Part shown: positions 15,400 to 54,752 of the stretch, piece after piece
How the letters are laid out: each line of letters opens with the position of its first letter
How positions within the stretch are numbered: the stretch's first letter is position 1
DNA from: Alphaproteobacteria bacterium
GTDB lineage: Bacteria; Pseudomonadota; Alphaproteobacteria; Rhodospirillales; Casp-alpha2
Direction: 5' to 3'
Assembly (NCBI GenBank): GCA_024279135.1
Contig: JAJRRU010000008.1
Span: 62,001 to 126,000 of the forward strand
DNA: 64,000 nt
Made by a program: the position numbers and the translations under genes
The notes under the pieces: generated by a model
Database searches by the model: none
Told to the model about the DNA's origin: nothing
What the model saw: only the letters and a program-made list of their open reading frames with translations

Positions 15400-15400
15400 C

Positions 15401-17187: not shown

Positions 17188-17194
17188 TGTCTCA

Positions 17195-17854
17195 TCAGGA
17201 GCCTGAACTGGCGCTTGATACCCGAATGCGCAATTCATCAAGGAACTTGCTGATATCACCATCATTATGGCGGATCGCAGAAGCAAACTCGGAACGCTGG
17301 GTCTGGCCCATGCTGATACCTTCAACCATGATATCGATGATTTTGTAGACCCCGTGATCGACACGGACACGCCATTCAAGTTGTAGGGGCGAGGTCATTT
17401 CCGGACGTTCCAGCGACGATGAAACGACGGCATCGCGCTTGTTGCGCACGTCGGTTTTAATAATTTGCAGGGTCATGTTGTCATAGCGGGCGAATTTATC
17501 CACATAGGATTCGATAAGCAACCGCTCAAACAAAGAGAGATAGTCTTCGCGTTCTTCCGCCGAGGCCTGTCGCCAGAATCGGCCAAGCACCCATTGGGCG
17601 ATTCCGGGTACATGAAAGTATTTATTCAATAACTTTTTCATGAGGTTTTTGCGTTCATCGCGGGAAATATCAGAAGCCGTCAGCTTCTTCATAACCGTAT
17701 CGGCCATATCCTGGACCAGTCTCTCTGCATCAACGGCCAGCTCAGCTGAAAGGGCTACGCGTGGTATCATCATCGTTGAAAACAACAGGACCAAACACCC
17801 TGCACTCAGGGATACTATCAATCTCCTGCCCATGAAGCGGCATAACTTACTCAT
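17195..17854 (-). CDS. hpnM: MlaC/Ttg2D-family periplasmic lipid-binding protein (HpnM-like)
   Basis: Soluble periplasmic lipid carrier of the toluene-tolerance Ttg2D/MlaC family (219 aa). A signal peptide with a long hydrophobic core covers residues 10-36. The mature part has the helical start AERLVQDMADTV, then YFHVPGIAQWVLGRFWRQAS and the RVRVDHGVYKIIDIMVEGISM strand region usual for the family. In hopanoid clusters this protein is named HpnM and is proposed to move hopanoids or phospholipids; an mlaA gene lies 5 kb away, so MlaC is an equally good name. It leads the squalene operon. A promoter-like inverted motif lies 35-56 bp upstream. Confidence 0.88.
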   Translation of the reverse strand: MSKLCRFMGRRLIVSLSAGCLVLLFSTMMIPRVALSAELAVDAERLVQDMADTVMKKLTASDISRDERKNLMKKLLNKYFHVPGIAQWVLGRFWRQASAEEREDYLSLFERLLIESYVDKFARYDNMTLQIIKTDVRNKRDAVVSSSLERPEMTSPLQLEWRVRVDHGVYKIIDIMVEGISMGQTQRSEFASAIRHNDGDISKFLDELRIRVSSASSGS

Positions 17855-25222: not shown

Positions 25223-26962
25223 ATGACTGATCGTACTGACGCAAATAGCAAAACAGCCAGCAAGGGCAAGTATAAAGGCAATAAGATACACCCTGGCTCT
25301 GGCCGCCGCAAAGCGCCGTCATTTAACAAGGGCCGACACCCTGCCCCGCAGGCTCTGGATGAAATAAATCAGCTGCTTGGTACGCGCTCACGCCAGCCCG
25401 ATTTGCTGATCGAACATCTCCACCTGATCCAGGATACCTATGGCCATTTATCGGCCGACCATTTACAGGCTCTGGCAGTTGAAATGGATGTTTCCATGAC
25501 CGAGGTTTATGAAGTTGCCTCGTTCTATGCTCATTTTGACATTGTGCTGGACGGCGAAACACCACCGGCCCCGCTGACCATCCGGGTCTGCGACTCCTTG
25601 AGCTGCCAGCTTGCCGGGGCGGAAGAATTAAAAGAAAATCTTGAAAATACCGTTGATGGTGCAAAAGTCAGAATCGTCCGCGCACCCTGCATGGGTCGGT
25701 GCGATGCGGCCCCGGTGGTTGAGGTCGGCCACAATCATCTGGGCCACGCCAATACCCAGGCAGTGGTTGCTGCCATGGAAAACCATGATACCCATGCTAT
25801 AGAACCAGACTACACCGGGCTGGATGAGTATCTGCAAGACGGCGGCTATGATTTGCTTAAAGCCTGTTATGCCGAGACCAGAAAACCTGAAGATATTGTC
25901 CAGATTATGCAGGATTCAGGCCTTCGCGGCCTGGGCGGCGCGGGTTTCCCGTCCGGCCTTAAATGGAAGATTGTCCGCGACCAGCCCAAACCCCGACTGT
26001 TTGCCATCAACGGGGACGAAGGCGAACCCGGCACCTTCAAGGACCGCTATCATCTGGAGAACGATCCCCACCGTTTCCTCGAAGGCGTGCTGATTGCCGC
26101 ATGGACTTGCGAGATTGATAAAACCTACATCTATATTCGCGACGAATACCCGGCCATTATCACCTTGCTGCGCCGTGAAATCGGCAAACTGGAAGACAGC
26201 GGGTTGACCGGCTCAACCAAGCTGGAAGTGCGCCGGGGCGCCGGGGCTTATATCTGTGGTGAAGAATCTGCCATGATCGAGTCTATCGAAGGCAAGCGCG
26301 GGCTGCCGCGCAACCGCCCCCCCTTCCCATCCGAACGGGGGTTATTCGGGCGACCCACCCTGACCCACAATGTAGAAACCCTCTATTGGGTGCGTGATAT
26401 CATTGAAAAAGGCCCGGACTGGTTTTCCGCACAAGGCATGAACGGCGGCAAGGGGTTCCGCTCATACTCGGTTTCTGGACGGGTCAAAAATCCCGGCGTT
26501 AAACTGGCCCCGGCAGGCATTACTGTCAGTGAGCTGATCGAACAATACTGCGGGGGCATGGCTGACGGACACACCTTCAAGGCTTACCTGCCCGGCGGCG
26601 CGTCCGGCGGTATTCTACCGGCCAGGCTTTCCGATATCGCCCTGGATTTTGGCGAGGCTTTATTCCAGCACGGCTGTTTTATCGGCTCTCACGCGGTAAT
26701 TATACTGTCTGATCAGGACAACATGAAAGACGTGGCCCTCAATTTGATGAAATTCTTCGAGGACGAGAGCTGCGGCCAGTGCACTCCGTGTCGCACGGGA
26801 ACGTCCAAAGCGGTTAAACTGATGTCTGAGGATAAATGGGATACCGACCTGTTGAACGATCTGCAAACGGTTATGGCTGACGCGTCGATCTGCGGGTTGG
26901 GACAAGCCGCCCCCAACCCCATGGCCTGTGTCATGAAATTTTTTCCGGAAGAAGTATCATGA
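25223..26962 (+). CDS. fdsB: NAD-dependent formate dehydrogenase, fused gamma-beta (NuoE-NuoF-like) subunit
   Basis: Diaphorase part of a soluble NAD-linked formate dehydrogenase. Residues about 45-190 are NuoE/FdsG-like, with a thioredoxin-fold [2Fe-2S] site (CDSLSCQ...CMGRCD). Residues about 200-579 are NuoF/FdsB-like, with the NADH/FMN region GLRGLGGAGFPSG and NGDEGEPGTFKDR, GAYICGEESAMIES, and a [4Fe-4S] site ESCGQCTPCRTG plus a later Cys. The fusion of FdsG and FdsB resembles Fdh1B of Methylobacterium; many bacteria keep them separate. The basic N-terminal 45 residues have no clear domain. The stop overlaps the next ATG (ATGA). Confidence 0.93.
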   Translation: MTDRTDANSKTASKGKYKGNKIHPGSGRRKAPSFNKGRHPAPQALDEINQLLGTRSRQPDLLIEHLHLIQDTYGHLSADHLQALAVEMDVSMTEVYEVASFYAHFDIVLDGETPPAPLTIRVCDSLSCQLAGAEELKENLENTVDGAKVRIVRAPCMGRCDAAPVVEVGHNHLGHANTQAVVAAMENHDTHAIEPDYTGLDEYLQDGGYDLLKACYAETRKPEDIVQIMQDSGLRGLGGAGFPSGLKWKIVRDQPKPRLFAINGDEGEPGTFKDRYHLENDPHRFLEGVLIAAWTCEIDKTYIYIRDEYPAIITLLRREIGKLEDSGLTGSTKLEVRRGAGAYICGEESAMIESIEGKRGLPRNRPPFPSERGLFGRPTLTHNVETLYWVRDIIEKGPDWFSAQGMNGGKGFRSYSVSGRVKNPGVKLAPAGITVSELIEQYCGGMADGHTFKAYLPGGASGGILPARLSDIALDFGEALFQHGCFIGSHAVIILSDQDNMKDVALNLMKFFEDESCGQCTPCRTGTSKAVKLMSEDKWDTDLLNDLQTVMADASICGLGQAAPNPMACVMKFFPEEVS

Positions 26963-29706
26963 ATACGACAACAACCTTCACCCTGAATGGCAATACCGTC
27001 GAGGCCAGAGACGGCGAAACAATCTGGCAGGTAGCCCAGCGCGAGAATATAGATATTCCTCACCTGTGTTACGCCGATGAGCCCGGCTACCGGCCCGATG
27101 GCAACTGTCGGGTCTGTGTGGTCGAGGTCGAAGGCGAACGGGCCCTGGCCGCGTCATGCCTGCGCAAACCAAGCGATGGCATGGTGGTCAACACGCTCTC
27201 CCAGCGGGCCAAAAAATCCCAGGAAATGGTCTTCGAGCTGCTGATTGCCGACCAGCCGGAACGCAGCACCGCTCATAACCCCAATTCGAAATTCTGGCAG
27301 CAAGCCGACAAAGCCGGGATCAGCACCTCGCGTTATCCGGCGTCCGCCAAACCACAGGCCGACAATTCGCACATTGCCATGGCGGTCAATCTGGATGCCT
27401 GCATTAACTGTACCTTGTGCGTGCGGGCGTGTCGCGAGGTCCAGGTCAACGATGTTATCGGCATGTCTTACCGGGGCAGCGGCGCGAAGGTTACCTTTGA
27501 TTTTGATACGGCCATGGGCTCAAGCACCTGTGTGGCCTGTGGCGAGTGTGTCCAGGCGTGCCCGACCGGCGCGTTGATGCCCGCCAGCGTGCTCGATGAC
27601 AATGGGACTTTGGCCCACGTTGCCGATACCATCGTCAACACCCTATGCCCGTTTTGCGGAGTCGGCTGTCAGACCGCCGTTCATGTTAAAGACGATAAAA
27701 TCATCCGGGTCGAAGGACGGCCCGGCCCATCCAACGAGAACCGCATGTGCGTCAAGGGTCGCTTTGGGTACGATTATATCCATCACCCCCACCGCCTGAC
27801 CAAACCGTTGATCCGGCGCGAGGATGCACCCAAGGCCTGGGATATTGAAATTCCCGACAGCGACTGGTCATCTGTTTTCCGCGAAGCCACCTGGGAAGAA
27901 GCCCTGGACGCGGCGGCAGGCGGATTGAAAAAAGTACACGAGGCCGGTGGCCCCAAATCCATTGCCGGGTTCGGTTCGGCCAAGGGCAGCAACGAAGAAG
28001 CCTACCTGTTGCAAAAACTCATCCGGACGGGATTTCATACCAATAACATTGACCACTGTACCCGGCTTTGCCATGCCTCATCGGTGGCAGCTCTCATGGA
28101 ATGTGTGGCTTCAGGGGCCGTGAGTGCCCCGTTTATGGACGCCGAGAAAGCCGACTGCATCATCGCCATCGGCTGCAACCCGGCCCAGAACCACCCCGTT
28201 GCCGCAACCTATTTCAAACAGGCGGCAAAACGCGGTGCCAAGATGTATATCATTGACCCGCGCGGCCAGCCTATGTCGCGCTATGCAACCCGGCACCTGA
28301 ATTTCACACCGCGCTCTGACGTTGCCATGCTCAATGCCATGATCCATGTTATCATTGAGGAAAACTTGTATGACAGCGCCTACGTGACGGAACACACCGA
28401 AGGTTTCGCCGAGCTTACGGAACACATCAAGGACTATTGCCCGGAAAAAATGTCGGCGGTTTGCGGTATCTCTGCCGATGATCTGCGAGAAGTGGCACGC
28501 ACATACGCCACATCTGATGCCTCTATCATCTTCTGGGGCATGGGCATTTCACAGCACATCCACGGCACGGACAATGCCCGATGTCTGATCACCCTGGCGC
28601 TGATCACCGGCCAGATTGGCCGACCCGGCACCGGGCTGCACCCCTTGCGCGGCCAGAATAATGTGCAAGGTGCCTCCGATGTGGGCCTGATTCCCCATAT
28701 GTATCCTGACTATAAGTCCGTCGAGGACCCAGACACCATTGCCCGGTATGAAGAGTTCTGGGGCACCTCTCTGAACCAAAACAAAGGCCTCACCGTGGTC
28801 GAAATTATCGACGCCATCGCCGACGGAGAGATCCGGGCCATGTATATTCAAGGTGAAAACCCGGCCATGTCGGACCCGGACCAGACCCACGCTCGAAAAT
28901 CTCTGGCCAAGCTGGAACACCTGGTGGTTCAGGATATTTTCCTGACCGAAACCGCCTGGCACGCCGATGTTATCCTGCCGGCCTCCGCGCATGCGGAGAA
29001 ATCCGGCACCTATACCAATACCAATCGCCAGGTCCAGTTGGGTCGGCCTTGTGTACCCATGCCCGGCGATGCCAGACAGGATTTATGGATTATCACCGAG
29101 ATTGGCAAACGCGTCGGTCTGGACTGGTCCTACGATGGTCCGCAAGCCGTCTTCGAGGAAATGAAACAGATCATGGCCTCCTTGAACAACATCACCTGGC
29201 AACGACTGGAAAACGAAGGATCGGTAACTTTCCCTTGCGACGCACCCGACAAACCGGGCAATGCGGTGATCTTTACCGATGGTTTTCCCACAGCCTCGGG
29301 TCGCGGCAAGATCGTCCCGGCCAGCATTATCCCGCCCGATGATCAGCAGAACGACGAATATCCCATGATCCTGACAACCGGGCGCATGCTGGAACACTGG
29401 CACACCGGGGCCATGACCCGGCGCTCGAGCGTGCTCGACAGCCTGGAACCGGGCGCCGTGGTCTCCATGAACGCTGCCGATATGGACCGTATGGGGCTTG
29501 AAGCGGGCGAAATGGCTCATGTGCACACTCGCCGTGGCACCATTACCCTGGCGATCCGCCAGAACCCCAATCAGCCGGAAGGCATGTTGTTCATTCCGTT
29601 TTGTTTCGCCGAAGCCCCGGCAAATGTGCTGACCAACCCGAAACTTGATCCCTTCGGCAAAATACCGGAATTCAAGTTTTCCGCTGCCCGCATTGAACGG
29701 GCCTGA
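26959..29706 (+). CDS. fdsA: NAD-dependent formate dehydrogenase, molybdenum/tungsten catalytic alpha subunit
   Basis: Oxidises formate to CO2 at a bis-pterin Mo/W centre. 915 aa. Residues 1-80 form a [2Fe-2S] ferredoxin domain (HLCYADEPGYRPDGNCRVC). A NuoG-like His-Cys cluster and two [4Fe-4S] sites follow (CINCTLCVRACREVQ; CVACGECVQACPTG), then the catalytic [4Fe-4S] site CPFCGVGCQT. The metal-ligand cysteine is in HCTRLCHASS, so it is the Cys form, not selenocysteine. QGENPAMSDPDQTH and the C-terminal GRMLEHWHTGAMTRRS are typical. No fdsC/fdhD or fdsD accessory gene is next to it; these must be elsewhere. Confidence 0.95.
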   Translation: MNTTTTFTLNGNTVEARDGETIWQVAQRENIDIPHLCYADEPGYRPDGNCRVCVVEVEGERALAASCLRKPSDGMVVNTLSQRAKKSQEMVFELLIADQPERSTAHNPNSKFWQQADKAGISTSRYPASAKPQADNSHIAMAVNLDACINCTLCVRACREVQVNDVIGMSYRGSGAKVTFDFDTAMGSSTCVACGECVQACPTGALMPASVLDDNGTLAHVADTIVNTLCPFCGVGCQTAVHVKDDKIIRVEGRPGPSNENRMCVKGRFGYDYIHHPHRLTKPLIRREDAPKAWDIEIPDSDWSSVFREATWEEALDAAAGGLKKVHEAGGPKSIAGFGSAKGSNEEAYLLQKLIRTGFHTNNIDHCTRLCHASSVAALMECVASGAVSAPFMDAEKADCIIAIGCNPAQNHPVAATYFKQAAKRGAKMYIIDPRGQPMSRYATRHLNFTPRSDVAMLNAMIHVIIEENLYDSAYVTEHTEGFAELTEHIKDYCPEKMSAVCGISADDLREVARTYATSDASIIFWGMGISQHIHGTDNARCLITLALITGQIGRPGTGLHPLRGQNNVQGASDVGLIPHMYPDYKSVEDPDTIARYEEFWGTSLNQNKGLTVVEIIDAIADGEIRAMYIQGENPAMSDPDQTHARKSLAKLEHLVVQDIFLTETAWHADVILPASAHAEKSGTYTNTNRQVQLGRPCVPMPGDARQDLWIITEIGKRVGLDWSYDGPQAVFEEMKQIMASLNNITWQRLENEGSVTFPCDAPDKPGNAVIFTDGFPTASGRGKIVPASIIPPDDQQNDEYPMILTTGRMLEHWHTGAMTRRSSVLDSLEPGAVVSMNAADMDRMGLEAGEMAHVHTRRGTITLAIRQNPNQPEGMLFIPFCFAEAPANVLTNPKLDPFGKIPEFKFSAARIERA

Positions 29707-30413: not shown

Positions 30414-30446
30414 GCGGGCCCTTCTTGTTATCCACACCCGGCCCGC
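30414..30446. terminator. GC-rich stem-loop across convergent gene ends
   Basis: GCGGGCC (30414-30420) pairs with GGCCCGC (30440-30446), loop 19 nt. It directly follows the methyltransferase stop and includes the end of the oppositely oriented oxidase gene. Possibly bidirectional; no T-tract. Confidence 0.35.
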
Positions 30447-31561
30447 GATGGGCTCAGGTCGGCTTCGGACAAACCGCAATCTGCAACACTTTGCGGGAAG
30501 TCCTTGCCACGAGCCAGTTGACCAGTGATCAGGGACATGGCGGGCGATGTCTTGATGCCAAAACCGCCCTGCCCGACCAACCAGAAAAACCCGTCCACCT
30601 GGGCATCAAATCCGGCCACCATCATCTCGTCGGCTACGAAGGAGCGCAGTCCCGCCCAGGTATGTTCAGGACGCCTGATCGATACAGTTGTGGCACGCTC
30701 AAAACGGTCGATGGCATAGGCAATATCAATGTCTTCCGGGCGGGCGTCACAGGGCGCTGACGGATGGCTGTCTTCCGGTGAAATCATAAGACGCCCTGCA
30801 TCGGGTTTGAAATAAAATGACGGGTCCAGCCCCATGACAAGCGGCCAGTCGCGGATATCATATTGCTGAGGAAGGCTGGCCAGCAGGGCACACCGTCGTC
30901 GCGGTTCCAGACCGATAGGTTTGACCCCGGCCATGACGGCTATTTCATCGGCCCAGGCACCGGACGCATTGATAATCACCGGGCTGGAGAACCGGCCGGA
31001 CCGTGTGGTGACCGTCCAGTCTTCGGTTCGTGAAATTTCCCTGACCTCGGCATTGACCTGCACCTTACCGCCTAGGGCTTTCATGGCCCTGAGGTAGCCT
31101 TGATGCAGACCATGCACATCAATGTCTTTGGCCTCATCGCTATAGATCGCCCGGTGGTAATAATCCGGGTTCAGGATCGGCACCCGTTTTAGGGCCTGGC
31201 CGGCATCCAGTTTCTCGAAACCGGAGCCTATCGAACCCAATATATCCATGAATTCGTCATATTCCGAACCCTGATTTTCCCGAAACAGGGTCATCATGCC
31301 CCGTGGGCTTAAAATGGCAGTATCCATAAAACCCGTTGGCGGATGATCCAAAAACGGCTTGCTGGCCTTGATCAGACGCAGGACTTTTTCCGGGCCGTAG
31401 GATGGTTCATAGGTGGCCGCAGAACGCCCCGTGGCATGGTATCCGGGTTGAGATTCCCGTTCCAGCAACACAACACTGCCATATTCCGATAGCCGCATGG
31501 ACGCCGACGCCCCGGCGATTCCCGCACCGATGATGATAAAATCAAAATGTTCCATGGTCAT
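30428..31561 (-). CDS. FAD-dependent amino-acid/amine oxidase (DAO family)
   Basis: 377-aa flavoprotein of the DAO (glycine oxidase/sarcosine oxidase/D-amino-acid dehydrogenase) superfamily. FAD Rossmann motif IIIGAGIAGASAS at residues 9-21, then LLERESQPGYHATGRSAA; VIINASGAWADEIA in the middle; a C-terminal GLRSFVADEMM and FWLVGQGGFGIKTSPA, which in relatives forms the flavin site. N-methyl amines, sarcosine or D-amino acids are possible substrates. The start is 7 nt past the choline-dehydrogenase-like stop, so the two form an operon, which fits an amine or betaine catabolic role by inference. Confidence 0.88.
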   Translation of the reverse strand: MTMEHFDFIIIGAGIAGASASMRLSEYGSVVLLERESQPGYHATGRSAATYEPSYGPEKVLRLIKASKPFLDHPPTGFMDTAILSPRGMMTLFRENQGSEYDEFMDILGSIGSGFEKLDAGQALKRVPILNPDYYHRAIYSDEAKDIDVHGLHQGYLRAMKALGGKVQVNAEVREISRTEDWTVTTRSGRFSSPVIINASGAWADEIAVMAGVKPIGLEPRRRCALLASLPQQYDIRDWPLVMGLDPSFYFKPDAGRLMISPEDSHPSAPCDARPEDIDIAYAIDRFERATTVSIRRPEHTWAGLRSFVADEMMVAGFDAQVDGFFWLVGQGGFGIKTSPAMSLITGQLARGKDFPQSVADCGLSEADLSPSRAGCG

Positions 31562-31567
31562 GTGGTT

Positions 31568-33244
31568 TTACCGTTCCGGATCGCCGGTCCGCTGAGTGTT
31601 TTCAACATCGGGTGTAATGTATACAGGTGCATTGGATGGGGCCAAAGGTTGTTTACCAAGAATGATGTCAGCAGCCTTCTCGCCAATCATGATTGTCGGG
31701 GCGTTCAGATTACCGTTTGTAATAGTGGGCATAATAGAAGAATCCACGATCCGCAAGCATTCCATGCCGTGAACTTTTGTTTCAGCATCGACCACGGCCA
31801 TTGGATCGTTTCCCATCTTGCAGGCACAGCTTGGATGGAGCGCCGTTTCGGCCGTATCGGCGACCCAGTTATCGATCTCATCGTCGCTCTGAATATGTTT
31901 TCCGGGTGCTATTTCCTCACCCCGATACGGATCAAACGGCGATTGTGCGTAAATCTCGCGGCTCAGACGCACACAGGCCCGAAAGCCTTCCCGGTCGTCT
32001 TCATGGGACAAATAATTAAAAAATAAACGTGGTTTTTCTGCCGGGTCTTTACTGCGCAAGGTAATGCGCCCCCGGCTCTTGGGTTTGTTGTGGCCCACAT
32101 GGACCTGAAAGCCCTGCTTGGTTTCCTGGGATGATCCGTCATAGGACATGGCCGCTGGCAGGAAATGATACTGGATATCAGGATAGGCAATGCCCGGTTT
32201 GGATCGTATGAACGCGCACGATTCGAAGTGATTGGTGGCACCAAGCCCGGTCTTTGAAAAGAACCACCGTGCCCCTATAAACAATTTCGATACAGGGTTC
32301 ATGACGCTTGCCAGGGTTATGGGCTGGGTGCAGGCCTGCTGTACCCAGACTTCCAGATGGTCTTGCAGGTTCTCGCCCACACCGGGCAGATCATGATGGA
32401 CTGTGATATCCATGTCCTTCAGGTGCGCCCCCGGACCGATGCCCGACAGCATCATAATATGCGGTGAACCGATGGCCCCGGCCGACAGGATGACCTCTTT
32501 TGTCGCCTTGACCTGGTGAACGTTCTCACCAAGTCGGTATTCCACCCCCACGGCCCGTTTGCCTTCCAGCAGAATACGGGTCGTCAGGGCATGGGTCTGG
32601 ACATGCAGATTGTTGCGTAACAAGGCGGGTTTCAGATAGGCGTTGGCCGTTGAGCAGCGCACACCGTCCCGCACGGTCATATCCATGCGGCCAAAGCCTT
32701 CCTGCTGATAACCGTTACTATCACCGGTTTTCAGATAACCGGCTTTGTGACCGGCTTCGATAAAAGCCCGGTACAGGGGATTTTTCATCTCGTTTCCATT
32801 ACACGTGGATAATGGCCCGTCTACGCCGCGATATTCATCACCGCCATAGAGACACCCTTCGGCGCGGCGGAAATAAGGTAAACAGTTCCGATAGCCCCAT
32901 CCGGAAGCGCCATTTTGTTCCCACTCGTCGAAGTCACTGCCGTGACCGCGCACATAGACCATGCCGTTAATGGACGAAGAGCCGCCGAGCACCTTGCCAC
33001 GAGCCTGATGGATCTTCCGACCATTCAGCCCCGGCTCGGGTTCGGTATAGAAACCCCAGTCGTATTTAGGCGAATTCATAGGGATCGACAGGGCCGTGGG
33101 CATCTGGATGAAGATGGAATTATCCTTGCCGCCGTATTCCAGCACACAAACCGTATTTTTGCCATCTGCCGAAAGATGATCGGCCAGCACACACCCGGCT
33201 GAGCCAGCCCCGATAATGACATAATCAAATTCCTGGTTCGCCAT
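31568..33244 (-). CDS. GMC family oxidoreductase, choline dehydrogenase-like
   Basis: FAD alcohol dehydrogenase of the glucose-methanol-choline family (558 aa). FAD motif [14 protein letters not shown] near residue 10, GMC signature 1 around [18 protein letters not shown], signature 2 [16 protein letters not shown], and the catalytic His in [11 protein letters not shown] with Asn in [17 protein letters not shown]. BetA and related alcohol dehydrogenases share this layout; choline itself is not proven. I chose ATG 33244 (MANQEF) because GGCAGG precedes it; the frame extends to 33292 without need. A neighbour of the DAO oxidase and of MttB-type methyltransferases. Confidence 0.9.
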
Positions 33245-33380
33245 GATCCTGCCTTTCGCTTGTCCCGTTTTAACCCAAGAAGACAATGTCATATTCTAGC
33301 ATCTTTTATCAATGATATAACGACTGTCTTTAGCAGATTTGTGTATTGATTTTGTTCATATCCCGTGTCATGTCAAAATC

Positions 33381-34115
33381 ATGAACAAATCCCGCCCCGC
33401 AAGACCGGCCATCAAAGGCATCCTGTTTGACAAAGACGGTACCTTGTTTGACTACACCGCAACCTGGATGCCGCTCAATCATCGCGCCGCCCTGATGGCT
33501 GCACGGGGAAATCAGGAACGGGCCCATGAACTGATGGAATTGGGTGGCTGGCAATCGCAAACCAACACGATTCGTTCCGGCAGTCTGCTCGCCGCCCACA
33601 CAAATTATGAAATCGCCACCGCATGGTCGGATGCCCTGGAGGACTGGACCACCGACGAGCTATACCAGGCCATCACCCACATCTTTAATACCTATGGTCT
33701 GCAAAGTGCCACCCCGGTTACCGACCTGCCCGAATTACTGAGCCGGTTAGCCGGTCTGGGTTATACGCTGGGGGTGGCCACCAGTGACAACGAGGCCAGT
33801 ACTCGGGCCATGCTGGACCGGTTCCATGTTGAAACCCGGTTTGATTTCATCGCCGGTTACGACAGCGGATACGGCGTCAAACCCGGCCCCGGTATGGTGC
33901 ACGCTTTTTGCAAGCAATGTGATCTGGATGTGAGCGAGGTTATTGTGGTCGGCGACAATTATCATGATATGGAAATGGGTGATAAAGCCGGGGTCGCTTT
34001 TTCCGTCGGTGTGCTGAGCGGCAACAGCACCCGAGCCGATCTTAGCGCCCATACGGACTATATCCTCGAAGATGTCACCGGGCTGGCAGAATTCCTGAAT
34101 AATTTATCAGGTTAA
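33381..34115 (+). CDS. HAD-family hydrolase, phosphoglycolate phosphatase-like
   Basis: 244-aa haloacid-dehalogenase-fold phosphatase. Motif I LFDKDGTLFDY (nucleophile Asp followed by acid/base Asp), motif II around GVATSDN, motif III Lys in YGVKPGPGM, motif IV VVGDNYHDMEMG. The helical cap lies between motifs I and II, as in Gph-type enzymes. ATG 33381 is preferred to upstream in-frame codons back to 33339. The last 9 bp overlap the convergent mttB-family gene. Substrate unknown. Confidence 0.88.
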   Translation: MNKSRPARPAIKGILFDKDGTLFDYTATWMPLNHRAALMAARGNQERAHELMELGGWQSQTNTIRSGSLLAAHTNYEIATAWSDALEDWTTDELYQAITHIFNTYGLQSATPVTDLPELLSRLAGLGYTLGVATSDNEASTRAMLDRFHVETRFDFIAGYDSGYGVKPGPGMVHAFCKQCDLDVSEVIVVGDNYHDMEMGDKAGVAFSVGVLSGNSTRADLSAHTDYILEDVTGLAEFLNNLSG

Positions 34116-35675
34116 TTTAAGGTCAGGACCCATTATCTGGGCGGGCAATCTGATATCGTGATTTTCCCTGATCAGGATGTCTTGCTGGGCTGTAATATGG
34201 GTTGGGTGGGGGCTGTCGAGGATTTCTTTCACCTTGCGACGTGCACCATCCATAATGGATTCTGAACCGGCCTCGATCCATTCCTTGGGGCTCATGCGAT
34301 TACCGATTTCCGGGTAGACATATTCGGTTTTCATGCGTTTGATAGTTTGCTCGTGGCCCAGATAATGTCCCGGACCATCCAGACAGACACTGCGCAGGGT
34401 TTCCACCGAAAGACTGTCTTCGGTGATCTCGATGCCGCGCACGGTACGCAGAATACCGCCGATCATATCGTTATCGATGATCAGCGCTTCTTTTGAAAAA
34501 CCCAGCAAACTGGCCTGCATCCCGGCAGCCTCGTAAATCAGATTACCCCCGGCGTGGGCCAGCAACGCCTCGGTATAACCCTTCTCATAACCATGCTGGG
34601 CATCGGGTGTCTTGGCATCTGTCATGCCAGCGGGCATGCTGCCGCACAGGTCATAATAATTGGCCATCTGGGCGCACGCCGCACTGAGCAGGGCCTGTTC
34701 GCCCGAACCACCGGACATGGCCCCGGTCCGCAGATCGGAAACAAACGGCCAGGCACCAAAGATCGCCGGATGTCCGGGTTTTATCAGATTAACGTAGACC
34801 AGCCCGGCCAGCACCTCGGCGACTTCCTGCATGATGGAACCGGCAAGGGCTGCCGGTCCGGTCGCCCCGGCTTGGCCGGCGGCGATCAGTAAAATCGGCA
34901 TACCGCCTTGTACCGCGACCTCCAGACAATGGCAGGCATCCTCGGCAAACGCCAATGGTGGCACCACGAAGCAGCTTGACTGGCTGACAAACGGACGGGC
35001 CCGCCATTTATCCTCACCCCCGGCTACCACGTGCAGCATCTCAAGTATTTTCGTAACACTTTCCGGGTTGCCCATGGATGTTCCCACATGTTTGGTAGTA
35101 CCGGATATGCAGGCGTAGGCCGTATTGATATCCATGACATCGGGTTCGACGATATCGCGGGCTACGATGGGACGCTGGAAAAAATGGATATTATCCAGAT
35201 TATCCACCAGACGGGCTATATCGTACAGGTCGCTAATGGTCGATTCGCGGTATTCATTTGTTTCAGATTCATATATATGGACGGCCGCCCCGCCCGTACC
35301 GAAATGCACATTATTTCCCCAAGGTTCCAGATCACGACTGGGGTCCTGGCCATAAAGCGGAAAATTCCGGGCTGCATTGGCAATGGTATCTTCCACCAGG
35401 GCGCGCGGAAACAACAACCGGCCATCGTGTGTGAGCGTGCCACCGGCGGCCACAACCCGCTCGATGCAAGACGGTATGGCATTGGAAAATCCAATGGTTT
35501 CCAGGACAGTCAGGGCGGCTTGATGAATACGTTCCAGATCGGCTTGTTGTAGCGGCTGGAACAATCCACCTACCATGCCGGGACGGATGGCGCGGTCCGC
35601 ATCAGGAACCGGCGCATCGTGCAGGGCTTTGCGGGCGGCCCGACCACCTCGACGGCTTTTAATATCGGTCGGCAT
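34107..35675 (-). CDS. MttB-family (COG5598) trimethylamine/betaine methyltransferase homologue 1, non-pyrrolysine
   Basis: 522-aa TIM-barrel methyltransferase homologous to MttB but with no internal TAG, so it belongs to the non-pyrrolysine group. Characterised members (for example MtgB, MtpB) demethylate glycine betaine or proline betaine to a corrinoid protein. Conserved stretches include GLFQPLQQADLERIHQAAL, HVGTSMGNPESV, GAWPFVSDLRTGAMSGGSGE and MTDAKTPDAQHGYEKGYT. AAGGATG precedes ATG 35675. The first 25 residues are basic and disordered-looking. It diverges from the ferredoxin-AOR operon. No corrinoid protein gene is in the window, so partner and substrate are open. Confidence 0.9.
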   Translation of the reverse strand: MPTDIKSRRGGRAARKALHDAPVPDADRAIRPGMVGGLFQPLQQADLERIHQAALTVLETIGFSNAIPSCIERVVAAGGTLTHDGRLLFPRALVEDTIANAARNFPLYGQDPSRDLEPWGNNVHFGTGGAAVHIYESETNEYRESTISDLYDIARLVDNLDNIHFFQRPIVARDIVEPDVMDINTAYACISGTTKHVGTSMGNPESVTKILEMLHVVAGGEDKWRARPFVSQSSCFVVPPLAFAEDACHCLEVAVQGGMPILLIAAGQAGATGPAALAGSIMQEVAEVLAGLVYVNLIKPGHPAIFGAWPFVSDLRTGAMSGGSGEQALLSAACAQMANYYDLCGSMPAGMTDAKTPDAQHGYEKGYTEALLAHAGGNLIYEAAGMQASLLGFSKEALIIDNDMIGGILRTVRGIEITEDSLSVETLRSVCLDGPGHYLGHEQTIKRMKTEYVYPEIGNRMSPKEWIEAGSESIMDGARRKVKEILDSPHPTHITAQQDILIRENHDIRLPAQIMGPDLKLT

Positions 35676-35882
35676 GATATTTCATCCTTATACCCGTCAT
35701 CACGTGAAGCACTAATTATCATATGTGCTTTAAAGTTTTTCTTGCAAACAAGAAAAAGTAAGTTCAAGCGATAAAAAAATTTGCTGACAGTTGAAATATA
35801 TCCAAATGTTTGGCTTTCCCAGTGGATCATTTAGTCATTATAATGTGCCCGAAATCAGATATAGCCAGGGAGCAATTAAACT

Positions 35883-36362
35883 ATGCACAAGTCACTTATC
35901 ATCGACGCTGGAAAATGCACCAGTTGTCTGCAATGTGAGATGGCATGTTCCTATGAACATACCGGAGCATTTAACCCATCGCGCTCGCGAATCAAGATTA
36001 TCGAGGTCGGTCACGGTGAACGATCCATTCCCTATACCTGCACCCAGTGCGCCGATGCCTGGTGCCAGAAGGCCTGTCCCACAGGCGCCATTACCGTCAA
36101 TCTGGCAACCGGAGCCAAGGTGGTCAATAATTCGACTTGCGTCGGCTGCAAGGTGTGCACCATCGCCTGTCCCTTTGGCACCATCAATTTCGACCAGATC
36201 AGCGGCAAGGTTGTGAAATGTAATCTGTGCGATGGAGACCCGGCGTGTGCCAAGGTTTGCCCAACAGATGCGATTACCTACGGCGATGCCAACTGGACCG
36301 GAATGGATAAATTACGAGCCTCGGCAATCAAAACAGATAGTGGAAACCAGGCGACTGCCTGA
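35883..36362 (+). CDS. four-cluster [4Fe-4S] electron-transfer protein (AorA-like)
   Basis: 159-aa polyferredoxin of the HycB/DmsB type. Sixteen cysteines fall into four groups: CTSCLQCEMAC near residue 12, CTQC...CQKACP, CVGCKVCTIACP, and CNLC...CAKVCP, enough for four [4Fe-4S] clusters. It lies 30 bp ahead of the aldehyde oxidoreductase gene and matches the small Fe-S subunit of the aor operon of aromatic-degrading Betaproteobacteria by size and place. It probably takes electrons from the tungsten subunit in the cytoplasm. A loose GGGAG sequence precedes ATG 35883. Confidence 0.88.
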   Translation: MHKSLIIDAGKCTSCLQCEMACSYEHTGAFNPSRSRIKIIEVGHGERSIPYTCTQCADAWCQKACPTGAITVNLATGAKVVNNSTCVGCKVCTIACPFGTINFDQISGKVVKCNLCDGDPACAKVCPTDAITYGDANWTGMDKLRASAIKTDSGNQATA

Positions 36363-36392
36363 TAGAAATTTTACCAGTTACGGAGAAACATC

Positions 36393-38216
36393 ATGGCTTG
36401 GGCGAATAATGTCTTACGAGTTAATCTGACTAAGGGAACCTGCATCAGCGAACCGCTGAATATGGAGTGGGCCGAAGCGTATATGGGCGAACGCGGTCTG
36501 GGCACCAAATACCTGTGGGAAAACATGGACCCTCAGGCTGATCCCCTGGGGCCAGACAATGTGCTGATTTTTGCCACCGGCCCGCTAACCGGCACCATGG
36601 CACCGACCAGTGGCCGCTACGCCGTGCTGTGCAAAGGCCCGCTGACCGGTGCCATTGCGTGTTCCAATTCCGGCGGTAAGTTTGGTGCAGAACTGAAGTT
36701 CGCAGGCTACGATCTTGTGCTCATCGAGGGTCGCTCCGAAAGCCCGGTTTACCTGAACATCGTCGACGACAAGGTCGAGCTGCTGGCGGCTACCGATATC
36801 TGGGGCACCACGGTGTGGCACACCGAAGCATGGATCAAGAAAACCCACAATGATCCGTTGATCAGGGTGGCGTCCTGTGGCGAGGCCGGTGAAAACCTGT
36901 GCCGGTATGCCTGTATTGTCAATGACCTGCACCGCGCCGCCGGGCGCTCCGGGGTCGGCGCGGTCATGGGGTCCAAGAACCTGAAGGCCATTTCGGTACG
37001 CGGCACCAAAGGTGTCACGGCAACCCACCCGGAGAAATTTATGGACGTGGTGCACGAATGCCACAGGGTTCTGGCCGAAAGCGAAGGTCGCAAGGCACTG
37101 ACCGAGCTCGGCACCAATGACATGATCGACATGATGCAGGAATTCGGCGGTCTGCCGACCCGGAATTTCGACGATGTGCAGTTTGCAGGCACCGACAAGA
37201 TCAATCCCTCGGCCATGTTTGAAGTCAAGGCCAACGGCCACCGCAACATGGTCACCAACAAGGCCTGTTTTGGCTGTACTATCGCGTGTGGTCGCATTGC
37301 CCACATCGACGAGAATCACTTTTCCATTGTAAACAAACCGGAATACCGCATGGCTTCGGGCGGGCTGGAATATGAAACCGCCTATGCCTTCGGCCCCCTG
37401 CTGGGCGTGGACGACATCGACGCGCTGACCTACGCCGGATATATGACCAACGAACACGGGTACGATCCGATTTCCTTCGGTGGCACCCTGGCCGCGGCCA
37501 TGGAACTTTATGAAATGGGGGTCATTACCGATGCCGATACGGACGGCGTGGCGCTGAATTTCGGCAGTGCCGAGGCACTGACCATCATGTCTGAAAAAAC
37601 CGGCAAGGGTGAGGGATTCGGTAAGATACTCGCCATGGGATCACGTTTGATGTGTGAAAAATACGGCCACCCGGAAATCGCCATGCACGTCAAGGGCCAG
37701 GAATTTGCCGGTTATGACAGCCGGGTGCTGCAAGGTATGGGTCTGGGGTATGCCACCTCCAACCGGGGAGCGTGTCATCTGAAACATGCCGTCTTCGACG
37801 AGGACATGGAAGACATCAGCGGCAATGGCAAGGCCGAACCCTGCAAGACCAGTCAGGACCACGTGGCGGCCATGGATTCCACCGGGCTGTGCCTGTTTGT
37901 CGAGGGCGCGGGCATGAACATTGGCCATTTTGTCGATCTGCTGAGCGCCGATCTTCCGACCTCGTGGAGCCAAGAGCGTATGATGGAGACCGGCGAGCGG
38001 GTCTGGAACCTTGAACGACGGTTTAATCTGGCAGCCGGTCTGACGGCTGCCGATGACACCCTGCCCAAGCGGTTGCTGGAAGTCCCTGCCCCGTCAGGCA
38101 GTGGCAAGGGCAAGGTCAGTGAACTGGCCCAGATGCTGCCCGAATATTACAAGGCCCGGGGCTGGACCGAAGATGGCAGGCTAACCAACGAGTTGATTGA
38201 GCGACTCGGATTATAA
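36393..38216 (+). CDS. aor: tungsten-dependent aldehyde ferredoxin oxidoreductase (AorB-like)
   Basis: Oxidises aldehydes to acids (or acids to aldehydes in reverse) at a W bis-pterin centre. 607 aa, the full family length. The N-terminal domain shows RVNLTKGTCISEPL, GERGLGTKYLW, FATGPLTGT and SNSGGKFGAELKFAGYD. The [4Fe-4S] cluster ligands lie in ACFGCTIACGRIAH, with a later Cys in STGLCLF. The GGLEYETAYAFGPLLGVDD and GKGEGF segments contact the pterin in relatives. GGAG lies 10 nt before ATG. It sits in an operon with the polyferredoxin before it and a MoaD-like protein after it. Confidence 0.93.
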   Translation: MAWANNVLRVNLTKGTCISEPLNMEWAEAYMGERGLGTKYLWENMDPQADPLGPDNVLIFATGPLTGTMAPTSGRYAVLCKGPLTGAIACSNSGGKFGAELKFAGYDLVLIEGRSESPVYLNIVDDKVELLAATDIWGTTVWHTEAWIKKTHNDPLIRVASCGEAGENLCRYACIVNDLHRAAGRSGVGAVMGSKNLKAISVRGTKGVTATHPEKFMDVVHECHRVLAESEGRKALTELGTNDMIDMMQEFGGLPTRNFDDVQFAGTDKINPSAMFEVKANGHRNMVTNKACFGCTIACGRIAHIDENHFSIVNKPEYRMASGGLEYETAYAFGPLLGVDDIDALTYAGYMTNEHGYDPISFGGTLAAAMELYEMGVITDADTDGVALNFGSAEALTIMSEKTGKGEGFGKILAMGSRLMCEKYGHPEIAMHVKGQEFAGYDSRVLQGMGLGYATSNRGACHLKHAVFDEDMEDISGNGKAEPCKTSQDHVAAMDSTGLCLFVEGAGMNIGHFVDLLSADLPTSWSQERMMETGERVWNLERRFNLAAGLTAADDTLPKRLLEVPAPSGSGKGKVSELAQMLPEYYKARGWTEDGRLTNELIERLGL

Positions 38217-38220
38217 GGCG

Positions 38221-38472
38221 GTGAAAATTACCCTGAAAACTGGCGGGCTGTTCGCTCGGTTTCTGCCCGCCGGAACGTCAGGGAAAGTTGCCGAACTGGA
38301 GGTTCCCGACGGTACCACACCGCTGGGTGTAGTCCGCCAGATCGGCGCACCGGCAGACGGACGTTGTCTGATTGTGGTCAACGGCAAGGCGGTGCCACCA
38401 TCACAGCACGACAGCCATATTCTGAACCATGGCGACAACATGTCCTATATGCCACCGCTCAAGGGCGGCTGA
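38221..38472 (+). CDS. MoaD/ThiS-like sulfur-carrier protein (AorD-like)
   Basis: 83-residue ubiquitin-like protein ending in PLKGG; the C-terminal Gly-Gly is the thiocarboxylate site of MoaD/ThiS carriers. In aor operons a MoaD-like protein supports pterin cofactor assembly for the tungsten enzyme. I take GTG 38221, 4 nt past the AOR stop, as start. A TTG at 38197 is open but would lie inside the AOR gene. A small gene easily missed because the next gene's frame overlaps it as an open reading frame from 38364. Confidence 0.82.
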   Translation: MKITLKTGGLFARFLPAGTSGKVAELEVPDGTTPLGVVRQIGAPADGRCLIVVNGKAVPPSQHDSHILNHGDNMSYMPPLKGG

Positions 38473-38510
38473 CACGCAGGCAATCAGGGCATTATGGAAC
38501 GGTGCGCGGC

Positions 38511-40070
38511 ATGAGAGAAAATACATCGGGTGAACTGGATCACAAACCCAGACGACGGGGCCGGAAAACTGCCAGCGGCCCGGCCTCGGGTTTCCGACAA
38601 TTGCCGTGGCAAACCATCCGCAACCCGTTCCCACCATTTAAATTTATTTCCGATGATCAGGTGGAAGATATCCACCACGCATCCCTGAAAGTGCTGGAGA
38701 ATACCGGCATCAACTTTCTGTTGCCCGAGGCCCGCGAAATTCTTCGCCAGGCTGGCGCGGACGTTGATGAAGCCACCACACGGGTTCGGTTCCCACCCGG
38801 TCTGATCGAGCAATATCTGGCCATGGCCCCGGCAGAATTTACCATGCATGCCCGCAACAAAGATCATAACCTGATGATCGGTGGCAATGTGATCAACGTC
38901 GCCATGGTCGCCAGCCCGCCCCATGTCTCGGCCCTGGATATCCCCCGGCGAGCCGGAACCTTCGATGATTTTTGTGATTTCCTGAAACTGGCGCAAAGCC
39001 TCAATATCATTCACCTGATCCCCGGATACCCGGTTGAGCCTACCGATATCCCCCCGCGCGTCCGTCATCTGGATACCTTTCAGGGCACGACCAGACTGAC
39101 AGACAAGCTCTTCATGATCTATGCACTGGGTGGAGAGCGAATCCGCGACGGCCTGAAAATGACACAGATTTCCCATGGCCTGAGCGCGGATCAGCTTCGA
39201 AATCAGCCTTGTGTCTTCACCATCGTCAACGCCAATTCACCCTTGCAGTATGACCAGTCTATGCTGGAAGGCACCATTGAGATGGCGCGCTTCAACCAGC
39301 CGGTCATTATCACACCGTTCACCCTGGCCGGGGCCATGGCACCGATCACCCTGGCCGGGGCACTGGTTCAGCAAAACGCCGAAGCCCTGGCCGGGATTGG
39401 CTTTATCCAGATGGTCAACCCGGGCGCTCCGGCGATCTATGGCGGGTTTACCTCCAACGTGGACATGAAAACCGGCTCACCGGCGTTTGGCACACCCGAA
39501 CAAGCCAAAGCCACCATTATCGGCGGCCAGCTGGCGCGTTATTACAAGCTGCCCTACAGGGCTTCCAACGTGAACGCCTCAAATGCCCCGGACGCCCAGG
39601 CGGCTTATGAGTCCCAGATGAACATCTGGTCGTGTATCCTGGCTCACTGTAACACCATCATCCACGGTGCCGGGTGGATCGAGGGCGGGCTGTGCGCGTC
39701 TTTTGAGAAAGTCATTATAGATGCAGAAATGCTGCAAATGATGGCTGAATTCCTGCAACCTCTGGATACGGACCCAGAAGCGCTGGCCATCGATGTCATA
39801 GACGAGGTCGGCCCCGGCGGACATTTTTTTGGCACCCAGCATACTCTGGATCGTTATGAAAATGCCTTTTATGCGCCCATGTTGTCAGACTGGAACAACT
39901 TCGAGAACTGGACCGACAAGGGCTCGCAAGATGCCACCCAGCGCGCCCATCATATCTACAAGGAACTGATCAATGACTATCAGGCCCCACCCCTTGATCA
40001 GGCCATCGATGAAGAACTCGATGCATTCATAAAACACCGCAAGGAACAAGGCGGTGTGGCACAAGATTGA
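38511..40070 (+). CDS. MttB-family (COG5598) methyltransferase homologue 2, non-pyrrolysine
   Basis: 519-aa second MttB-type protein. The barrel begins at about residue 45 (FKFISDDQVEDIHHASLKVLE, N-terminal MttB pattern). It continues with PPHVSALDIPRRAG, RNQPCVFTIVNANSPLQYDQ, MVNPGAPAIYGGFTSNVDMKTG and GPGGHFFGTQHTL. It has no internal TAG. It differs clearly from homologue 1 (NANSPL and FTSNVDMKTG are the variant of another subgroup), so the two are not a recent duplication. The start is ATG 38511; GTG 38502 is possible. It follows the MoaD-like gene in the AOR operon, in the place of aorC. Substrate unknown. Confidence 0.9.
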   Translation: MRENTSGELDHKPRRRGRKTASGPASGFRQLPWQTIRNPFPPFKFISDDQVEDIHHASLKVLENTGINFLLPEAREILRQAGADVDEATTRVRFPPGLIEQYLAMAPAEFTMHARNKDHNLMIGGNVINVAMVASPPHVSALDIPRRAGTFDDFCDFLKLAQSLNIIHLIPGYPVEPTDIPPRVRHLDTFQGTTRLTDKLFMIYALGGERIRDGLKMTQISHGLSADQLRNQPCVFTIVNANSPLQYDQSMLEGTIEMARFNQPVIITPFTLAGAMAPITLAGALVQQNAEALAGIGFIQMVNPGAPAIYGGFTSNVDMKTGSPAFGTPEQAKATIIGGQLARYYKLPYRASNVNASNAPDAQAAYESQMNIWSCILAHCNTIIHGAGWIEGGLCASFEKVIIDAEMLQMMAEFLQPLDTDPEALAIDVIDEVGPGGHFFGTQHTLDRYENAFYAPMLSDWNNFENWTDKGSQDATQRAHHIYKELINDYQAPPLDQAIDEELDAFIKHRKEQGGVAQD

Positions 40071-50264: not shown

Positions 50265-50268
50265 ATCA

Positions 50269-51252: not shown

Positions 51253-51254
51253 GG

Positions 51255-52847: not shown

Positions 52848-52871
52848 TATTTATTTCCTAATCTACGTAAT

Positions 52872-54050: not shown

Positions 54051-54067
54051 CGTTTTCCCACCATTGT

Positions 54068-54745: not shown

Positions 54746-54752
54746 AACATCA

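Follow-up and report, generated by a model that had tools for sequence, protein, structure and literature searches.

A tungsten aldehyde oxidoreductase module without AorC adjoins an uncharacterised MttB subgroup in a gene island that probably belongs to a shared corrinoid demethylation network

Results

The window, the 64-kb stretch of alphaproteobacterial DNA analysed here, carries between positions 30428 and 40070 an island of eight ORFs, whose coordinates and family names as given in a preliminary description were borne out by Pfam and NCBIfam profile matches. The minus strand encodes a DAO-type FAD oxidoreductase related to DauA (30428..31561; Pfam DAO; PDB 3nyc (DauA), E = 2.7e-103; 58% to its orthologue in genome G134) and a GMC oxidoreductase of the choline dehydrogenase (BetA) family (31568..33292; NCBIfam TIGR01810; choline dehydrogenase PDB 9lq0, 603 bits; G134 orthologue 69%). 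A HAD-family hydrolase on the plus strand (33339..34115, likelier start ATG 33381; Pfam HAD_2; G134 orthologue 53%) is followed on the minus strand by MttB-A, a non-pyrrolysine MttB of an uncharacterised subgroup (34107..35675; Pfam MTTB; active-site columns). Divergently from MttB-A, and separated from it by an AT-rich intergenic region of 207 bp (35676..35882), run the plus-strand genes for an AorA-like polyferredoxin with four CxxCxxCxxxC-type clusters (35883..36362; 8c0z_C, E = 6.6e-68), an AorB-like catalytic subunit of a tungsten aldehyde oxidoreductase (AOR) with AFOR_N and AFOR_C domains (36393..38216; 8c0z_A, 728 bits), an AorD/MoaD-like sulfur carrier (38197..38472, likelier start GTG 38221; Pfam ThiS) and MttB-B, a non-pyrrolysine MttB of an MtgB-like branch (38364..40070, likelier start ATG 38511; Pfam MTTB). 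The listed starts of the HAD, MoaD-like and MttB-B genes are TTG codons from a mechanical ORF list; with the revised starts, the four plus-strand genes from the polyferredoxin to MttB-B form a single tight run. The intergenic region contains a perfect 9+9 inverted repeat at 35736-35757, for which 0.01 matches are expected in the window at up to two mismatches. No relative's locus among those compared contains its core, and we rejected it as a conserved operator.

Among 46 window ORFs scanned with Pfam, none matched PF02607, PF14574 or Pterin_bind, in agreement with the earlier observation that the island encodes neither a corrinoid protein nor its activator. Candidate partners are nevertheless present in the genome, and the view that they are missing and the methyl acceptor unexplained found no support. 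Genome-wide, PF02607 and PF14574 matched on contig C12 only, and the only RamA found is encoded there, within a cluster at 10-23 kb that comprises, by Pfam, RACo/RamA, Pterin_bind, MTHFR, DUF5981, DUF1638, B12-binding, DAO-GcvT, ETF and MttB families. We read these genes as RamA, an MtgD-like methyltransferase, MetF/MetV-like proteins, DUF1638, an MtgC-like corrinoid protein, a DMGDH-like protein, ETF and a glycine-betaine-type MttB, so that MtgC-, MtgD-, RamA- and DUF1638-type genes, judged by Pfam families, all occur in this genome. The preliminary description had proposed a search for an MtxC-type corrinoid protein and RamA elsewhere in the genome, and had held that their location there together with joint induction would make this an ordinary betaine demethylation system; as to location, both lie on C12. 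In G134, the part of this hub from RamA to MtgC is also present, at 68-87% per gene. The apparent gap, demethylases without corrinoid machinery, is thus largely resolved by a hub on another contig. Instead, the picture is that of one shared corrinoid hub with many substrate-specific MttB genes around it: this genome has seven MttB genes, and the numbers of MttB matches, a few fragments included, in the four genomes bearing the MttB-AOR pair were 7, at least 12, 18 and 23, these counts being lower bounds where there were more than seven candidates (in G134, 7 of 14 were scored, and at least 12 is the union of two listings).

Across 199 genomes of the order, RamA was found in 20 of the 24 MttB genomes versus 16 of the 175 others (Fisher 3.7e-14). 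This strong co-occurrence, the hub in this genome and in G134, and the use of MtgC or MtqC by published systems all speak against a pathway without corrinoid protein, with the MttB proteins methylating tetrahydrofolate (THF) or free cobalamin directly. Such a pathway would accord with the lack of a corrinoid gene match in the 64-kb window and with the four MttB genomes of the order sample in which RamA was missing (G186, G017, G066 and G136, with the same outcome when searched again), yet we consider it very improbable, and corrinoid-independent chemistry was rejected as the default once the hub had been found. The same four genomes, together with G583, which has ten MttB matches and in which RamA was not found, also count against the shared-hub reading.

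Both island MttB proteins cover nearly the whole PF06253 profile (356 bits for MttB-A and 657 bits for MttB-B; gathering threshold 25), and both ORFs are free of in-frame stops and hence of a pyrrolysine codon. They are only 26% identical and accordingly belong to different subgroups, as had been proposed. In the alignment, Met351 of MttB-A stands in the column of the 7xcl pyrrolysine (Pyl334). Exactly at this codon, an ATG where pyrrolysine genes have TAG, begins an Rfam PYLIS_3 match on the minus strand (34526..34625; 47.4 bits against a gathering threshold of 38). Among 13 loci scanned, six further matches fell in five loci of the MttB-A subgroup, and none in L020, also of this subgroup, or in the genome's other six MttB loci. 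We rejected the match as a sign of pyrrolysine use, since it starts on ATG in an open frame and marks the coding similarity of one MttB subgroup; it is taken as shared coding sequence and not as a recoding element.

The substrate pockets were compared at active-site columns read from solved relatives, using the glycine-betaine-binding residues Y94, N199, R309 and H345 predicted by docking (PMC6855144). The hub MttB clade has the complete Y-N-R-H pocket in 12/12 members, and MttB-B, with A-N-R-H, retains three of the four residues, Tyr94 being replaced by Ala. MttB-A belongs to a subgroup distinct from this betaine-type hub MttB, and its pocket, G-F-S-E, departs from the predicted betaine-binding set of MtgB; its Glu382 occupies the column of DhMtgB His345 and MttB Tyr364, and Glu is found there in 9/9 members of its nearest clade and in 25 of the 36 rows of its subgroup. 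A subgroup that lacks the predicted betaine residues and mostly has Glu at one of them probably does not act on a simple betaine. Both proteins probably strip methyl groups from quaternary amines: the substrate of MttB-A is probably one with no carboxylate in that pocket, for example a choline-like compound, and that of MttB-B probably one that carries a carboxylate but is not glycine betaine. What stands out from the comparison is an uncharacterised MttB subgroup whose pocket differs.

The AOR has both an AorB and a four-cluster AorA of the Aromatoleum type. Searches by tblastn gave no AorC match in the window, and no AorC gene lies between AorB and AorD; AorC matched only once in the genome, at C12:84531, within an ordinary AorABCD, whose AorC could act in trans, a point against the shared-hub reading. 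The island AOR falls in a four-member clade (support 100/100) that keeps AorA, AorB and AorD, and tblastn found no AorC in the window, L052, L053, L057 or L219, compared with 9/9 sister loci bearing AorC. Within the AOR's 14-member clade, the loss of AorC coincides exactly with the MttB-linked part, where AorA and its clusters are retained. We considered and rejected the idea that this loss is unique within the AOR family: AorC was likewise missing from the 1.5 kb compared in a distant clade, mostly without AorA, and at the loci L028, L160 and L165, in which AorA is present, whereas contig ends truncate L041 and L156. In AorA, Phe42, a reported contact of AorC, is Phe in 12/12 AorC-bearing rows and V/L/I/V in the AorC-less ones (Val in the window); it is one of only two changes among 73 invariant AorA positions, and the chance of striking a named contact is about 0.08. 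The other named contacts show no such pattern, with AorA W60 and A95 and AorB V290 kept, AorB P287 variable, and AorA A9 seen in two AorC-bearing rows as well. The window AorA has a recognisable C-terminal segment.

One explanation for this pattern is that the AOR serves as a low-potential electron source: with AorC lost, the polyferredoxin would reduce ferredoxin or RamA, which would re-activate Co(II)-MtgC. The exact coincidence of AorC loss with the MttB-linked part of the clade, the retained AorA clusters and the replacement of Phe42 in AorC-less AorA only, among the rows aligned, would fit such a role. It is nonetheless unlikely, given that the remaining named contacts do not follow Phe42, that RamA and MttB occur together without this AOR type in 18 of 20 genomes of the order sample, that RamA is encoded in another cluster, that demethylation would be limited by aldehyde supply, and that a literature search for an AOR donating electrons to RamA gave no result.

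Each of the four AorC-less AORs (window, L052, L057 and G580, the adjacency in G580 being inferred across two contig ends) has a relative of MttB-A as its neighbour, with relatives of 65-76% identity adjoining the AOR in G134, G579 and G580. No MttB was found at the nine AorC-bearing sister loci, versus 4/4 AorC-less loci (Fisher 0.0014, tblastn re-check); these four loci form one clade, so that the neighbourhood they have in common amounts to about a single event. At L018-L021, tblastn found no AOR. The other island genes are less constant. MttB-B lies directly downstream of the AOR run in the window only; G580 has it at a distance of about 7 kb, and G134 and apparently G579 on a separate contig. 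The GMC, DAO and HAD genes are common to the window and G134 only, none being found on the examined G579 and G580 island contigs, which are short. The association of AOR with MttB given in the preliminary description accordingly stands for one of the two subgroups, in four genomes. A literature search found no published pairing of the two genes, and only two archaeal papers with both families.

Synteny could also be coincidental, with MttB-A, the AOR and the oxidases having independent functions and sharing a locus by descent. There are only four loci, from a single clade, the GMC, DAO, HAD and MttB-B partners differ among genomes, and characterised AOR is described, in the available parts of two papers, as a broad-spectrum enzyme that mainly detoxifies surplus aldehydes (PMC6365974, PMC10413684). 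We nevertheless find mere hitch-hiking rather unlikely, because the adjacency is kept at 65-85% identity although a LysR gene intervenes in two genomes and other neighbours differ.

The GMC oxidoreductase passes the equivalog cut-off of TIGR01810 (betA; 793 vs 732 bits). The DAO resembles DauA (PDB 3nyc) over its whole length and keeps Y53, R222, Y249, R305 and G332, but differs by Met for E87 (Met89 in the DAO), Thr for H48, Glu for T50, Pro for E246 and Lys for Q336. These positions were taken as the functional ones of DauA, with Glu87 as the residue for cationic side chains; owing to the replacements of Glu87 and His48, a preference of the DAO for D-Arg or D-Lys appears doubtful. The oxidases would admit a choline route, in which the HAD hydrolase would convert phosphocholine to choline, the BetA-like GMC enzyme would form betaine aldehyde, the AOR would replace betaine aldehyde dehydrogenase in producing glycine betaine, the hub MttB and DMGDH would finish demethylation, and MttB-A would take a choline-like or partly demethylated intermediate. 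We give this route a fairly low probability. It gains from the GMC score, from the full predicted betaine pocket of the hub MttB, from the lack of an aldehyde dehydrogenase above the BetB cut-off in all four island genomes (best 508 vs 668.6 bits) and from the statement, in the accessible part of a review, that the tungsten enzyme WOR5/ASOR oxidises betaine aldehyde (PMC12096430). However, that cut-off was passed by only 2 of 14 control genomes, and G000 has 14 BADH-profile matches, all below it, any of which may serve; moreover, the DAO is DauA-like and no dimethylglycine dehydrogenase, and the GMC gene is not on the examined G579 and G580 contigs. BetA-family GMC enzymes with other alcohol substrates exist.

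Next to the island lie fhs, encoding formate-tetrahydrofolate ligase (23158..24831, minus strand; Pfam FTHFS; an 82% relative lies beside oxalate genes in G134), and a formate dehydrogenase (25223..29706, plus strand; NuoEF-like beta subunit 25223-26962, alpha subunit 26959-29706; Pfam; TIGR01591, 743 bits vs cut-off 666). They had been suggested as part of a C1-yielding pathway. The adjacency is confirmed, but membership is weakened: in G134, both are on the island contig with oxalyl-CoA decarboxylase (oxc) and formyl-CoA transferase (frc) between them, which fits a formate/oxalate module. The pair is probably a separate module of this kind, and we rejected it as proof of a dedicated C1 branch. 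A further use for the neighbouring enzyme would be that AOR(AB) couples to its NuoEF-like subunit, so that NAD is still reduced, as WOR1 does with a HydABC-like module according to the available text of a review (PMC12096430). The beta subunit is indeed a NuoE-NuoF-like fusion, and formate dehydrogenase shares the island contig in G134 too; there, however, it is located about 15 kb from the island, beside the oxalate cluster. Formate dehydrogenases of this kind work with their own alpha subunit, and the coupling seems quite improbable.

Discussion

We consider it likely that the genome has a shared corrinoid/THF demethylation network with the island as one of its substrate-specific spokes, and propose the following hypothetical scheme, in which (i) MttB-A and MttB-B, each with a methylated amine of its own as donor, would methylate the MtgC-like corrinoid protein encoded on C12, the island spokes thus using the C12 hub; (ii) MtgD would hand the methyl group to THF, with RamA/DUF1638 keeping the cobalamin reduced; (iii) methyl-THF would be oxidised by MetF/MetV; (iv) the BetA-like GMC enzyme and the AOR would take an alcohol via the aldehyde to the acid, either in that substrate itself or in the product of its demethylation, while the DauA-like DAO may act on an amino-acid-like intermediate; and (v) the AOR electrons would pass to an acceptor other than AorC/NAD. 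What remains new is a clade of AorC-less AORs beside one MttB subgroup whose predicted betaine pocket is missing. A bolder and unlikely extension is that this AOR clade shed its NAD-reducing subunit on becoming tied to the non-betaine MttB subgroup and is now a dedicated low-potential electron source with which, via AorA, oxygen-respiring bacteria re-activate the corrinoid or drive another step in the demethylation of quaternary amines, the aldehyde from the substrate skeleton paying for active cobalamin. If the AOR did feed low-potential electrons to cobalamin chemistry, this would address how aerobes power corrinoid re-activation.

The AOR module shares AorA, AorB and AorD homologues with AorABC of Aromatoleum aromaticum (AorB, 728 bits to 8c0z), but differs in having no AorC beside it and in the lost Phe42 contact of AorA (PMC6365974, PMC10413684, as far as their accessible text goes). 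It departs from the statement, in the part of PMC6365974 available to us, that three subunits, the NAD subunit among them, are common to all bacterial AORs of this branch; a literature search for AORs lacking AorC gave no result in the text accessible. WOR1 (Wor1LS with a HydABC-like module) and the two-subunit WOR5/ASOR likewise combine a tungsten subunit with a polyferredoxin and have no AorC, but are from other clades of the family and from anaerobes, and the available review text describes no MttB link (PMC12096430). PDB 9mqx, an AOR with an Fe-S subunit, also belongs to another clade, and a link to MttB is not described for it. Brockarchaeota and Asgard genomes resemble the present case as non-methanogens with both MttB and AFOR; they are archaea, however, in which the role proposed for AFOR is in formaldehyde or general energy metabolism, and the accessible parts of the papers describe no gene pairing (PMC8065059, PMC11291895).

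For the shared hub, the available literature offers close parallels. In Eubacterium limosum, many MttB homologues (MtpB, MtcB, MtyB and MthB) work with MtqC-MtqA-RamQ (PMC8604678, PMC12155760), and MttB proteins from separate clusters share the one corrinoid protein, MtqC (PMC8604678). Their substrates include proline betaine, carnitine and gamma-butyrobetaine (PMC8604678, PMC12155760), as well as phosphocholine (PMC12478193); unlike the present organism's system, that of E. limosum is from an anaerobic acetogen, and pairing with an aldehyde oxidoreductase is not described in the portions available. The MtgBCD system of Ruegeria pomeroyi (Mausz et al. 2025, PMC12478193) is similar in coming from an aerobic alphaproteobacterium with several PF06253 genes and in transferring the methyl group to THF, whereas an AOR, DauA-like DAO or GMC island is not described in the accessible text. 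According to the same text, MtgB1/B2, MtgC, MtgD, RamA and DUF1638 are encoded apart in R. pomeroyi, and as many as seven pfam06253 ORFs are present in bacteria with mtgC/mtgD. The split layout is not universal, since the hub genes are found together with genes for later demethylation steps in many other marine bacteria (PMC12478193).

Gene content of the island

All eight genes that the preliminary description had placed at 30428-40070 were found there. A minus-strand pair at the left encodes a DauA-like DAO and then a BetA-like GMC oxidoreductase, followed to the right by a HAD hydrolase (plus strand) and MttB-A (minus strand). MttB-A is separated by a 207-bp AT-rich region from a divergent plus-strand run encoding an AorA-like ferredoxin, an AorB-like tungsten AOR, a MoaD-like carrier and MttB-B, which is 26% identical to MttB-A. 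Within the divergent region lies a perfect 9+9 inverted repeat with a 4-bp spacer (35736-35757), possibly an operator, the core of which did not occur in the relatives' loci searched. On sequence grounds, the island is best read as one spoke in a network for corrinoid demethylation, linked to an AOR without its NAD subunit. The preliminary description holds as an observation and is half right as an interpretation. The kind of system is already known, and what is new here, as a variant, is the attachment of such an AOR to a spoke.

A corrinoid hub and dispersed MttB genes

The corrinoid protein and its activator RamA, noted as absent from the island in the preliminary description, are both encoded outside the window, on contig C12 of the same genome (3.65 Mb, 98% complete). 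Genome-wide searches found seven MttB genes, a single RamA and two B12-binding_2 proteins, one MtgC-like (227 aa) and the other inside a 626-aa frame that is probably methionine synthase. The C12 cluster combines MtgC, RamA and one MttB with an MtgD-like pterin-binding protein, MTHFR, DUF5981, DUF1638, ETF and a DAO-GcvT protein of the dimethylglycine-dehydrogenase type. Its RamA-to-MtgC part also occurs in the related genome G134, where MtgC, MTHFR, MtgD and RamA are 82-87% identical to their counterparts here, and three small genes 68-73%. Two other MttB genes adjoin DAO-GcvT proteins (805 aa; 818 aa, 41% identical to that of the hub), another (C26:7302-8804, L016) an EF-G-like protein of 643 aa, and another an ornithine cyclodeaminase-family gene. 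Since MtgC, RamA and an MttB lie together on C12 and the other MttB genes lie apart, the genome is, judged by gene order, organised as one hub with several spokes. The MttB and EF-G-like pair is kept in G134 (L243; 67 and 69%).

A dispersed hub-and-spoke layout of demethylation genes has already been described for Ruegeria pomeroyi, in a paper which adds that such genes often lie together in other marine bacteria (PMC12478193); MtqC, MtqA and RamQ of Eubacterium limosum are common to MttB homologues of separate clusters (PMC8604678). In a sample of 199 genomes of the order to which the window belongs, MttB was found in 24, RamA in 36 and both in 20 (Fisher 3.7e-14; counts treated as one sample, as genome handles agree). 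RamA was absent despite MttB in G186, G017, G066 and G136, also in a second search, and G583 had ten MttB matches and no RamA; with G017 and G066 94% and 97% complete, incompleteness is not easily the reason. Relatives can be rich in MttB (PF06253 matches, some of them fragments), with 23 in G580, 18 in G579 and at least 12 in G134, accompanied by one, one and two RamA genes, respectively.

An AOR without AorC

The closest solved relative of the window AOR is the Aromatoleum AOR catalytic subunit (8c0z, 728 bits), and for the island ferredoxin the match is to AorA from that complex. The usual operon order in the loci inspected is AorA-AorB-AorC-AorD, with AorC as the subunit for FAD and NAD. 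A tree of 64 AORs places the window protein, with 100/100 support, together with those of L052 (G579; 85%), L053 (G580; 82%) and L057 (G134; 79% identity), nested within a 14-member clade; AorC adjoins AorB in all ten other members of this clade and in none of the four. The sole AorC match in the window's genome belongs to another AOR operon, of the ordinary kind, at C12:82605. Three subunits are stated in the literature for every bacterial AOR of this branch (PMC6365974), and anaerobes are known to have two-subunit tungsten enzymes (PMC12096430).

Of the 73 AorA positions invariant in AorC-bearing rows, two differ in all AorC-less rows covering them, one being Phe42, a reported contact with AorC (PMC10413684); four AorC-bearing loci taken as a control had no such change among invariant positions. 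The other reported contacts lend no support to a loss: AorA Trp60 and Ala95 and AorB Val290 are kept, AorB 287 is variable, and the Ala at AorA position 9 of the AorC-less rows recurs in two rows with AorC. With a probability of about 0.08 for a chance hit by one of two changes on one of the three invariant contacts named, the Phe42 change is no more than suggestive of a real AorC loss. AorC is also lacking in a more distant AOR group, mostly without AorA as well, and within 1.5 kb in L028, L160 and L165, where AorA is present. A separate AOR clade of the same order (L024-L027, L030-L033, L063 and others) has neither AorA nor AorC nearby.

Pairing of MttB-A with the AOR

An MttB-A relative adjoins AorA in all four AorC-less loci, directly in the window and in L052, whose stretch holds only the N-terminal 122 residues of the MttB (66%), and with an intervening LysR gene in G134 and G580 (75-76%); the G580 pairing is read from two unjoined contigs (L219, L053), one breaking off and the other starting within AorA. 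None of nine AorC-bearing sister loci (L054, L055, L205-L211) contains MttB in stretches of 9.5-21.8 kb (Fisher 0.0014, the four loci being one clade and not independent). The picture differs for plasmid-borne MttB-A relatives, of which four were inspected out of 192 matching records (Sinorhizobium 56%, Roseovarius 54%, Ruegeria 52%, Alisedimentitalea 48%). Other FAD oxidoreductases lie alongside these MttB genes or no more than about 3 kb away, LysR genes share the stretch, and no AOR occurs in it.

GMC, DAO and HAD also lie near the pair in G134 (69, 58 and 53%), and none was present on the island contigs examined of G579 and G580. MttB-B adjoins the AOR run in the window, lies about 7 kb off in G580 and, in G134, has a relative on another contig beside an old-yellow-enzyme-like protein. 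In L053 (5259-10854) and L244, MttB-B relatives adjoin an old-yellow-enzyme/trimethylamine-dehydrogenase-like protein of 703 aa, which could catalyse the following demethylation step. GMC-MttB pairing may recur, since in G580 (C384, L218) a relative (44%) of the GMC in the window directly adjoins a further member (50%) of the MttB-A subgroup.

Predicted substrates

A docking study names Y94, N199, R309 and H345 as likely betaine contacts of D. hafniense MtgB (PMC6855144). The hub MttB has all four, as do the 11 proteins nearest to it (12/12); the corresponding residues are Ala-Asn-Arg-His in MttB-B and Gly-Phe-Ser-Glu in MttB-A. The column of His345, Tyr364 in MttB, is Glu in 9/9 of MttB-A's nearest clade and, in the MttB-A subgroup (n = 36), Glu in 25, His in 5, Gln in 3, Leu in 2 and Ser in 1. 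The pyrrolysine column is Met in 25 of the 36. An Rfam PYLIS_3 match (34526-34625, minus strand) starts exactly at MttB-A codon 351 (ATG) in an open frame. Scanning 13 loci gave seven matches in six MttB-A-subgroup loci, the window gene included, which suggests that the model captures coding sequence; L020, of the same subgroup, and the other six MttB loci of the genome had no match. We read MttB-A as probably closer to trimethylamine methyltransferase in this segment, binding no carboxylate there, and MttB-B as a putative betaine-type enzyme for another substrate.

The DAO retains Tyr53, Arg222, Tyr249, Arg305 and Gly332 of DauA, and Met replaces Glu87; these are residues that we take to have roles in DauA. 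The island GMC scores above the betA cut-off, and no aldehyde dehydrogenase in the window's genome, G134, G579 or G580 passes that of BetB (0/4; 2/14 control genomes pass), so the AOR may, but need not, be the enzyme that oxidises betaine aldehyde.

Neighbouring and other window genes

In G134, fhs and FDH lie on the same contig (C21; L216, L258) as the MttB/AOR island, with oxalyl-CoA decarboxylase (oxc; 982 bits, cut-off 739) and formyl-CoA transferase (frc; 693, cut-off 504) between them. Together, fhs and FDH look like a formate/oxalate module, and may nonetheless oxidise C1 units from the hub. The G134 oxalate cluster also holds a 300-aa gene, formyltransferase-like by eye, with no NCBIfam match at 1e-60. 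Elsewhere in the window, LytB (IspH)-type, amine-oxidase-like and two squalene/phytoene synthase-like genes (12825-17379) form a likely hopanoid or isoprenoid cluster, and a Tad/Flp pilus cluster (49293-60028) encodes CpaB, a secretin, CpaD, a T2SSE ATPase, two T2SSF proteins and a Tad-domain protein.
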